DNA of 26,149 bases, from positions 1-26,149 of IMG/VR virus record IMGVR_UViG_3300028590_000080; one strand, written 5' to 3'. The notes beneath the pieces are model-generated. The model had not been told where the DNA came from, made no database searches, and saw only the letters and a list, made by a program, of their open reading frames with translations. This document shows, piece by piece, positions 2-1,932 of this stretch. Position numbers and translations under genes: made by a program. Source of the DNA: a virus. The stretch's first letter is position 1; every line of letters starts with the position of its first letter.

Positions 2-1327
2 ATGAAGGACATGCCTGCATTCCTTCTGGCTGTTCTGGCGTCTCGGGACGTGGGCCTGTTCAAGCAGGTCTTCGATCGTGTCATCGACAACGGTCGCATG
101 CTGCGCAACTTCGTGCAGATCATGCGCTCGGGTGCAACCGGACGCTCGTCGCTCGGTACGGCTCCGAAGAAGAAGGTGCAGGAGTGGCTTGCAAAGCGCT
201 CCCCTGAGCAGCTTCTGCGTGACATGGTGGGTAACAACCCGTCGCTCGCAGACGTGATCAAGATGGTTCACCCAAAGCCTGAGACGAAGTCTCAGTCGGC
301 TGCGTTCGCATACCTATGCGATCGCAAGTACGATGGACGCTCTCTTCCGAAGTGCTTCAAGGAGTTCGAGGCGTTCAAGGCAGGTGAGAAGGGCAAGAGG
401 GTCATCCCGGACGTGCCGTTCCAGCTGCTCACGGCGTCCGACCTTTCCGACAAGGAGTGGACGGAGATCGCGAAGAACGCACGCTGGCAGATGACCAGGA
501 TGAACCTGAACACCTTCGCACGCCACAACGTGCTGAAGGACCAGGCGATGGTGGACATGCTCGCAGAGCGACTGCGTGACCCCGTACAGGTCCGTGCGTC
601 GAAGAACTTCCCGTACCAGTTGTTTACGAGCTACATGTTCGTGGATGCGGAAGTTCCTACCAAGCTGACGAATGCACTTCAGGATGCGATGGAGGTCGCG
701 GTCTCCAACGTTCCTAAGTTCGAGGGCAAGGTCCAGGTCCTTGTGGATACGTCTGGCTCCATGAGTGGCATCGTCACGGGTGACCGTGGCACTGCTTCGA
801 GCAAGATGCGCTACACGGACGTCGCTGCGCTGATTGCTTCGGTGGTCCTGCGTCAGAACGACGAGGCAGAAGTATACGGGTTCGATACGTCGGCTCGTAA
901 GCTGAAGCTCAACGGACGTGATTCGGTCGTCACCAACGCACAGAAGATCAACACCCCTGGTGGTGGTACGGACGTGTCGTGTGGTCTTCGACTCCTGAAC
1001 AGCGAGAAGGCGAAGGGCGACCTCGTCATCATCATCTCGGACAACGAGTCGTGGTTCGACGGCGGGAACAACCCGTTCGGGTACCGTGGAACCAGTGCAG
1101 CGCACGAGTGGCAGGCTTACAAGGCCCGCAACCCGAAGGCACGCATGGTCTGCATCAACATCGCACCTATGTCTACAGTACAGGTGCCTACTGACAAGAG
1201 CGTTCTCAACGTCGGTGGCTTCTCCGACCAGGTGTTCGAGGTCATTGCCTCGTTCATGAAGTCTGGTGGTGAGAAGGACTTCTGGGCCAAGGAGATTGAC
1301 AGCACGGTCAAGCTCATGGTAAGCTGA
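2..1327 (+). CDS. TROVE/Ro60-like RNA-binding protein with vWA domain (5' end outside window)
   Basis: The reading frame is open at the left edge, so the first Met here is probably internal: 441 residues are visible, while Ro60/Rsr proteins are usually about 530. The first ~230 residues are helical and basic, as in the TROVE HEAT-like ring that binds misfolded RNA and Y RNAs. The C-terminal ~200 residues form a von Willebrand A fold with a complete MIDAS: D249-x-S251-x-S253 in VDTSGSMSG, T323 in GGGTDV and D347 in IIISDNES. The known role of the family is RNA quality control and tethering of RNA effectors such as PNPase through Y RNA. Directly downstream lie a structured RNA, a tRNA-like cloverleaf and a tRNA, which suits an RNA-binding role. 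The family call is firm; its function in the phage is inference. Confidence 0.85.
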   Translation: MKDMPAFLLAVLASRDVGLFKQVFDRVIDNGRMLRNFVQIMRSGATGRSSLGTAPKKKVQEWLAKRSPEQLLRDMVGNNPSLADVIKMVHPKPETKSQSAAFAYLCDRKYDGRSLPKCFKEFEAFKAGEKGKRVIPDVPFQLLTASDLSDKEWTEIAKNARWQMTRMNLNTFARHNVLKDQAMVDMLAERLRDPVQVRASKNFPYQLFTSYMFVDAEVPTKLTNALQDAMEVAVSNVPKFEGKVQVLVDTSGSMSGIVTGDRGTASSKMRYTDVAALIASVVLRQNDEAEVYGFDTSARKLKLNGRDSVVTNAQKINTPGGGTDVSCGLRLLNSEKAKGDLVIIISDNESWFDGGNNPFGYRGTSAAHEWQAYKARNPKARMVCINIAPMSTVQVPTDKSVLNVGGFSDQVFEVIASFMKSGGEKDFWAKEIDSTVKLMVS

Positions 1328-1393: not shown

Positions 1394-1465
1394 GCCCGCA
1401 AAGTGTAGATAGCGACACACCTGATTCGTAACCAGGAAAGCCGAGCGCAAGTCTCGGTGTGGGCT
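1394..1465 (+). tRNA. Degenerate tRNA-Thr(CGT)-like cloverleaf
   Basis: A complete cloverleaf of normal size folds here. The 7-bp acceptor is 1394-1400/1458-1464 (one G-T pair). The D stem GTGT/ACAC is 1403-1406/1415-1418. The anticodon stem is 1420-1424/1432-1436 with one A-C mismatch, and its loop TTCGTAA has anticodon CGT at 1427-1429 and the usual U33 and A37. The T stem CCGAG/CTCGG is 1441-1445/1453-1457. G1-C72, C2-G71 and anticodon G35-U36 match threonine identity. The elbow nucleotides are abnormal: position 8 is A, the D loop AGATAGCG lacks GG, and the T loop is CGCAAGT instead of TTCRANT. No CCA is encoded. It is either a divergent phage tRNA-Thr or a tRNA mimic belonging to a Y-like RNA with the segment upstream. 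Confidence 0.5.
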
Positions 1466-1466
1466 C

Positions 1467-1538
1467 TCGGGGATCGTCTAACGGCAAGACAGTTGACTTT
1501 GAATCAGCGTAATGGGGGTTCGAATCCCTCTCCCCGAT
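1467..1538 (+). tRNA. tRNA-Gln (anticodon TTG)
   Basis: A standard 72-nt cloverleaf. The acceptor TCGGGGA pairs with TCCCCGA (1467-1473/1531-1537), with a weak T1-A72 first pair typical of tRNA-Gln. The D arm is 1476-1490 with GG in the loop. The anticodon arm is 1492-1508 with loop CTTTGAA and anticodon TTG at 1499-1501. The T arm is 1514-1530 with canonical loop TTCGAAT. CCA is not encoded, so host CCA addition is needed. It begins two bases after the degenerate Thr-like cloverleaf, implying a shared precursor transcript. It would decode CAA (and CAG by wobble). Confidence 0.93.
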
Positions 1539-1571: not shown

Positions 1572-1610
1572 AACGGCTCGTCATGGAAACATGGCGGGCC
1601 GTTTTGCTTT
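1572..1610 (+). terminator. Intrinsic terminator after the tRNA cluster
   Basis: A 14-bp stem pairs 1572-1585 with 1590-1603 (two G-T pairs), capped by a GAAA tetraloop and followed by TTTTGCTTT. This is a textbook Rho-independent terminator that would end the TROVE/RNA/tRNA transcript. A smaller hairpin (CTCCG/CGGAG, 1540-1557) lies between the tRNA-Gln and the terminator. The S4-domain gene starts 17 bases after the T tract. Confidence 0.8.
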
Positions 1611-1611
1611 G

Positions 1612-1620
1612 TGGTATGTT
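1612..1620 (+). promoter_or_regulatory. Possible extended -10 promoter for a leaderless S4-domain gene
   Basis: TGGTATGTT reads as an extended -10 element (TG-N-TATGTT). There are six bases between its end and the ATG at 1627, so transcription would begin at or very near the start codon. No -35 is recognisable and no Shine-Dalgarno site precedes the ATG. The placement right after a terminator and the same six-base spacing as the better promoter at 13731-13758 are the main support. Confidence 0.35.
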
Positions 1621-1626
1621 ACGCTC

Positions 1627-1932
1627 ATGCCAGTCGTCGTCCAATGGCCAAGTATCACTGCTACGCAAGCCGAAGTGTGGGTAGTCCTACATCTATCAGG
1701 CATGGCAAAGAGTGTGAGGCAGGCCAAGGAGATGGTCAAGCGTGGATACGTTCGCCTGAATGGCGCTCCAGTAGACATGCGCACGAAGGTAGCGATCGGT
1801 GAAGATTTCACCCTCACAACATTAGATCCATTGCGGAGAGACTCAAAAATCATCAGGCTCGTCGAGCGTCAGTACTACGAGGGCAGAAATCCTAGGCAAA
1901 CTGGACCTAGGCAGGAGTTCAGGAGAGGTTGA
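1627..1932 (+). CDS. S4-domain RNA-binding protein
   Basis: Residues ~21-65 match an S4 domain like those of ribosomal protein S4 and TyrRS: SVRQAKEMVKRGYVRLNG followed by V-x-x-x-x-x-V-x-x-G-E-D. S4 domains bind structured RNA such as tRNA or rRNA. The C-terminus is short and basic (RNPRQTGPRQEFRRG). I chose ATG 1627 (101 residues): the upstream in-frame ATG at 1591 lies inside the terminator stem, and ATG 1702 would cut into the domain. There is no clear RBS; the message is probably leaderless or read through. With the TROVE protein and tRNAs it makes an RNA-metabolism neighbourhood. The target RNA is unknown. Confidence 0.75.
   Translation: MPVVVQWPSITATQAEVWVVLHLSGMAKSVRQAKEMVKRGYVRLNGAPVDMRTKVAIGEDFTLTTLDPLRRDSKIIRLVERQYYEGRNPRQTGPRQEFRRG

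Follow-up and report, generated by a model that had tools for sequence, protein, structure and literature searches.

A phage tRNA-Thr(CGU) with A18 and G55 at the elbow, a paired swap that recurs in other viral and some microbial tRNAs

A 72-nt cloverleaf in a virus fragment is, in our judgement, probably a working phage elongator tRNA-Thr(CGU) for ACG codons, with an elbow that would be built on A18-G55 in place of G18-Psi55. As a gene this tRNA appears to be ordinary, and the surprising element is its elbow, in which two bases that differ from the textbook covary widely in other tRNAs. The window, by which we mean the whole stretch of DNA that was analysed, is an IMG/VR virus fragment of 26,149 bases that encodes an SPO1-like portal and a major head protein. 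The features of the window that the argument uses are as follows.

2 to 1327, plus strand: TROVE/Ro60-like gene, running in from the window edge (Pfam vWA_Ro60 4e-15, TROVE 7e-4)
1394 to 1465, plus strand: tRNA-Thr(CGU) with an A18/G55 elbow (Rfam RF00005, 38.2 bits; ortholog at L004:16-87; covariation in 14/21 pairs)
1401 to 1402, plus strand: A8-A9 linker, with A8 for the usual U8 (A8 likewise in the tRNA-Thr of L011, L013 and L039)
1407 to 1414, plus strand: D-loop AGATAGCG, that is A14 G15 A16 U17 A18 (1411) G19 (1412) C20 G21
1427 to 1429, plus strand: anticodon CGU, reading ACG
1446 to 1452, plus strand: T-loop CGCAAGT, that is C54 G55 (1447) C56 (1448) A57 A58 G59 U60
1467 to 1538, plus strand: ordinary tRNA-Gln(UUG) (ARAGORN; Rfam 58 bits; the same neighbour in L004, L011, L013 and L039)
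1591 to 1932, plus strand: S4-domain protein gene (Pfam S4 1e-6; L004 homolog 40% identical; same place in L013)

An earlier note, made from the letters of the window, had placed a full cloverleaf at exactly 1394-1465, between a TROVE gene and a normal tRNA-Gln, and both the limits and the position are confirmed: the Rfam tRNA model covers the whole of this interval at 38.2 bits (gathering threshold 29, E 7e-5 for the window), the TROVE gene ends at 1327 and the tRNA-Gln starts at 1467. The product of the TROVE gene matches Myxococcus phage Mx1 at 49%. On the plus strand the cloverleaf reads GCCCGCA-AA-GUGU-AGAUAGCG-ACAC-A-CCUGA-UUCGUAA-CCAGG-AAAG-CCGAG-CGCAAGU-CUCGG-UGUGGGC-U. Its arms have the standard lengths that had been claimed for them (7/4/5/5, with a variable loop of 4 nt), while the fifth pair of the anticodon stem is mismatched (A31.C39); the gene does not encode CCA and has U at position 73. 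The Thr identity set is known from established work in E. coli, and its bases G1-C72, C2-G71, G35 and U36 are present in the window and in the relatives L004 and L011, in agreement with the Thr identity (G1-C72, C2-G71, anticodon CGT) that had been proposed. A loop-blind scanner that requires only the stems and U33 found just the tRNA-Thr and the tRNA-Gln in the window, and in matched random sequence it found 0.025 cloverleafs per window. Because the Rfam score lies above the gathering threshold and matched random sequence yields so few cloverleafs, the cloverleaf is not a chance fold. ARAGORN reported the tRNA-Gln alone, so the expectation that standard scanners would miss this tRNA holds for ARAGORN but not for Rfam/Infernal, which finds it at default thresholds. 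Judged by its sequence, the cloverleaf is a tRNA-Thr(CGU) and no mimic. Among the 503 Thr codons of the window, ACG is the most frequent, with 154. Codon use in the window is uneven elsewhere too, with 601 AAG against 2 AAA codons for Lys and with CGG and TTA almost absent, in a genome of 54% G+C.

To describe the elbow we numbered the D-loop of the window tRNA-Thr by the Rfam alignment. The canonical elbow pair G18/U(Psi)55 is absent both in the window and in L004, which have A18 and G55 instead. The bases of the second elbow pair, G19 (1412) and C56 (1448), are present in the window and conserved in its relatives. Thus the claim that the D-loop GG is missing applies to position 18, which is A (1411), but not to position 19, and the claim that the T-loop TTC is missing applies to positions 54 and 55, now C and G, but not to C56, with A57 and A58 also in place. 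The window has C54 and A8 where the U54-A58 and U8-A14 pairs call for U, and L004 has U54. The T-loop of L004 is UGCGAGU and its D-loop is identical to that of the window. Together the window bases A18, G55, C56, A57 and A58 make up the base set of the A18-G55 purine trap, and the departures from the standard tRNA are A18, G55, C54, A8 and A31.C39. The missing U8 had also been counted as part of the degeneration; A8 is indeed there, but because it occurs as well in the ordinary G18/U55 tRNA-Thr of L011, L013 and L039, comparison among these phages marks it as a family trait that is normal in their tRNA-Thr. By base identity, Psi55, Gm18 and, in the window, m5U54 would be impossible in this tRNA.

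Next, we looked for relatives by portal protein searches, which led to 68 viral loci; a direct search of viral contigs with the TROVE protein turned up no relatives, and the 72 nt, searched as DNA against isolate phages, had chance matches only. At L004:16-87 there is a close homolog of the window tRNA-Thr (39.3 bits), followed by a tRNA-Gln(TTG) and an S4 gene, and ARAGORN rejects this tRNA-Thr too. A covariance model was built from the window and L004 tRNAs and searched against the relatives, where it matched a tRNA-Thr next to a tRNA-Gln in L011, L013/L028 and L039. In L013/L028 the order TROVE, tRNA-Thr(CGT), tRNA-Gln(TTG), S4 is that of the window. The five orthologous 72-nt tRNA-Thr align without a gap, and when they are read as a cloverleaf, 95.2% of the pair cells are paired and 14 of the 21 stem pairs show changes on both sides, a level that none of 500 shuffles reached; slid controls gave at most 44%. 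Compensated changes separate the acceptor, D and T stems of the window from those of L004, while the D-loop, the anticodon arm and the T-loop core are unchanged. The homologues do compensate in their stems, the point on which the earlier note had let its claim depend, and this compensation looks like the picture of a working tRNA gene. RNAfold by itself did not fold the L004 tRNA into a complete cloverleaf, and L004 has A53-U61 in place of the near-universal G53-C61. The orthologs of L011, L013 and L039 have G18 and U55, yet A8. The D-loop of L011, the nearest relative with the usual elbow, is AGACGGCG against the window's AGATAGCG, so that the frame is the same, with G18/U55 on one side and A18/G55 on the other. 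In this phage family A18/G55 occurs in two members only, the window and L004.

The covariance model also matched further phage tRNAs that have the A18/G55 pair. To see how positions 18 and 55 go together beyond this family, we counted them in larger sets of tRNAs. Among 187 cloverleafs in the phage loci first gathered, U55C56 goes with a D-loop GG in 161 of 161 cases and G55C56 goes with AG in 15 of 17. We then scanned with matched patterns that differ at 18 and 55 only (D-arm GCTC/GAGC, class I spacing), and in viral contigs A18+G55 was found in at least 120 stretches, A18+U55 in 28 and G18+G55 in 3. The A18+G55 pattern was found in at least 114 stretches of bacteria and archaea, with one genome per species. 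Among the matches listed, the genomic A18+G55 cases come from Verrucomicrobiota, Elusimicrobia, Planctomycetota, Omnitrophota, Mycoplasmataceae, Patescibacteria and DPANN-type archaea, with the cultured bacterium Verrucomicrobium sp. BvORR034 among them, and there are full cloverleafs in 97 viral and 95 genomic matches, many with an encoded CCA. The A18/G55 tRNAs span all isotypes. In about 1,000 cloverleafs of the fetched loci, with the pattern-selected tRNA left out, G55 is accompanied by A18 in 309 and by G18 in 31, and U55 by A18 in 2 and by G18 in 687; these counts are not independent events, as most of the loci were chosen because they contain an A18/G55 tRNA, and their arrays are related. 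With one vote per locus, the numbers are 75 versus 6 for G55 with A18 or G18 and 159 versus 2 for U55 with G18 or A18. Twenty-five of the 31 cases of G55 with G18 can also be read as A18-G19-G20. Positions 54 and 58 likewise covary (U-A 416, G-G 31, A-U 26, C-A 19), and the C54.A58 of the window is the rarest of these four combinations. The sampled isolate phages Boopy, T5, Quantum, Enygma, phiLo, Mx1, RcXuper and DSS3_MAL1 have no A18/G55. Taken across these sets of tRNA genes, the A18/G55 swap is no local accident but is common among other viral tRNAs and those of some microbes, and its paired nature suggests a second natural way to build the tRNA corner. The claim that the elbow cannot form consequently does not follow, A18/G55 being a co-varying substitute.

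Some of the swapped-elbow tRNAs form a sub-type in which A18 goes with a T-loop GGCRG (G54..G58), as if the 54-58 and 18-55 contacts had both been exchanged together (L092:4424-5070 and 5966, L080:6905, L013:623, L024:885). At L013:623 and in L028 there is a cloverleaf that may be a phage suppressor tRNA, with a CTA (amber) anticodon and the T-loop GGCAGCA.

The C54.A58 and A31.C39 of the window, the A53-U61 of L004, and the rejection of both tRNAs by ARAGORN are what one would expect of a decaying tRNA-Thr pseudogene whose elbow bases drifted once selection was lost. We regard such a pseudogene as unlikely, since the stems of the window and L004 are compensated while the D-loop, anticodon arm and T-loop core are kept, and both elbow changes make up the exact pair that covaries elsewhere. 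Some decay may nevertheless have contributed to these further deviations.

The tRNA sits directly 3′ of the TROVE gene. Bacterial Y RNAs (YrlA) mimic tRNA, and true YrlA/YrlB adjoin a TROVE gene in L006/L007, so we also considered whether the cloverleaf is bound by Ro/TROVE, mimics tRNA in the manner of a Y RNA, or diverts host factors or defences as a decoy. The earlier note had thought of a decoy or a capsid- or Ro-bound RNA, and these ideas found no support. There is no match to YrlA or YrlB (RF02553, RF02565) up to E 5 over 1300-1620, and the same search detects both in L006/L007. Folding of the spacer at 1328-1393 is no better than that of shuffled sequence (z -0.27), and the TROVE genes of several phages lie near ordinary tRNA arrays. 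Because L013/L028, TROVE-adjacent in the same gene order, have the usual G18/U55 elbow in their tRNA-Thr(CGT), the odd elbow does not track the TROVE gene. We therefore rejected an identity as Y RNA or Ro RNA, and we consider any reading of this kind very improbable. A riboswitch in the spacer, where by eye a cobalamin core or an H-type pseudoknot seemed possible, was rejected as well for want of an Rfam match and with the same folding score. At 1358-1391, just 5′ of the tRNA, TGAGGA/TCCTCA and GCCGG/CCGGC could pair as an H-type pseudoknot, and L004 retains AAACC(A/G)GCA-TTA at the corresponding site.

Several TROVE loci are of interest in their own right. Two short, unverified records named as Escherichia and Salmonella phages (L006:872-1190 and L007:719-1037) carry TROVE together with YrlB and YrlA, the latter also in a second, weak copy. 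In phages, TROVE/Ro genes are often found next to or inside tRNA arrays (as in L095, L098 and L100; Boopy, Enygma and Mx1), and such loci sometimes carry tmRNA and peptidyl-tRNA hydrolase genes.

Whether an A18/G55 elbow serves in translation can be judged from genomes in which such a tRNA has no companion. In seven small genomes (L277, L282, L297, L331, L337, L342 and L346), the first four of them titled Mycoplasmataceae, closely similar A18/G55 tRNA-Phe are the only tRNA-Phe found, a statement that rests on pattern searches and, for the mycoplasmas, on draft assemblies of unstated completeness. Tight and loose searches with GAA-anticodon patterns found no other tRNA-Phe in these seven genomes, and the remaining loose GAA matches are not tRNAs according to ARAGORN. 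In four of the seven, the A18/G55 tRNA-Phe lies within a Ser-Met-Asp-Phe array. If the assemblies are near complete, the seven genomes would translate all their Phe codons with an A18/G55 tRNA, and because the sole tRNA-Phe found in them has A18/G55, the swapped elbow is probably functional in translation. Changes at the elbow are known as one means of weakening the use of a tRNA on the ribosome, and the staphylococcal cell-wall tRNA-Gly is a charged tRNA kept from translation as an amino-acid donor, but it is hardly credible that the window tRNA is likewise charged and excluded from translation to serve as a donor, given the same elbow in all isotypes and in the apparent sole tRNA-Phe of several genomes.

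In some tRNA arrays A18/G55 has become the rule, accounting for 18 of 19 tRNAs in L266 and 14 of 14 in L270, and for 23 of 23 and 20 of 20 in the viral loci L191 and L211. Arrays that are wholly or nearly A18/G55, with up to 23 tRNAs, also occur in the genomic loci L263, L299 and L350. The Planctomycetota and Verrucomicrobiota genomes tested keep canonical tRNAs beside their separate A18/G55 arrays, with a canonical tRNA-Phe in several, and these arrays look like a second, parallel tRNA set.

A functional but odd tRNA-Thr(CGT), the reading that the earlier note had listed last, is supported by ortholog synteny, by stem covariation and by the widespread A18/G55 covariation. The tRNA-Thr(CGU) would most likely decode ACG as an elongator during infection, with the corner between the D-loop and T-loop closed by the retained G19-C56 and by the purine A18 pairing with G55. 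We infer that A18 and G55 touch and that the L shape forms, and that the tRNA would accept threonine and serve on ribosomes. The swap may be a neutral equivalent that a rare double change has produced, or it may protect the tRNA from enzymes acting on its T-loop or elbow. A published proposal that phage tRNAs evade anticodon nucleases concerns changes in the anticodon loop and does not mention the elbow (PMC10264068). More broadly, and tentatively, A18-G55 could be a second standard tRNA elbow in which Psi55 is impossible, found in mobile or viral arrays and in the housekeeping tRNAs of some small genomes, with the window tRNA as one instance; the A18-G55 set is perhaps a parallel tRNA set that evades host T-loop enzymes or elbow-directed nucleases. 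A natural and strongly covarying replacement, found in arrays that serve most amino acids and apparently in sole housekeeping tRNAs, makes the requirements of the elbow directly testable, and the A18/G55 tRNAs are ready-made natural tRNAs without Psi55. In practical terms, ARAGORN, a common tRNA finder, missed both of the A18/G55 members found in this phage family.

Compared with the canonical tRNA-Thr (RF00005), the window tRNA shares the cloverleaf, the arm lengths, G1-C72/C2-G71, CGU, G19, C56 and synteny with ordinary orthologs, and it differs in A18/G55 for G18/U55, C54 for U54, A8 for U8 and A31.C39. With the Y RNAs YrlA and YrlB it shares a tRNA-like fold adjoining a TROVE gene, but it does not match them, is without a flanking Ro-binding stem and is syntenic with real tRNAs. 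Another likeness is to the specific purine trap A18-G55 of the Steinberg laboratory, where in about 2004 suppressor tRNAs selected in vivo in E. coli reportedly gave the rule that U55 needs G18 and G55 needs A18. The 18/55 rule is the same there, in a T-loop with U54-A58; that trap came from a randomised library, whereas here it occurs naturally in phages, in bacteria and in archaeal assemblies, and the window has C54. We found no published description of a natural A18-G55 pair or class in a partial coverage of the literature that included few subscription journals, and A18-G55 is absent from the passages covered of two reviews (PMC7912444, PMC7609411). The first of these describes G18-U55 as a shared elbow contact and Psi55 as the tRNA modification with the most universal conservation (PMC7912444). 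The second lists tRNA-Pyl and metazoan mitochondrial tRNAs, which lack G18G19/TPsiC, as exceptions (PMC7609411). These resemble the window tRNA in being functional tRNAs without the textbook elbow bases, but they have a smaller D-loop or other contacts (PMC7609411), whereas the window tRNA keeps standard arm and loop sizes and has the pair alone swapped.
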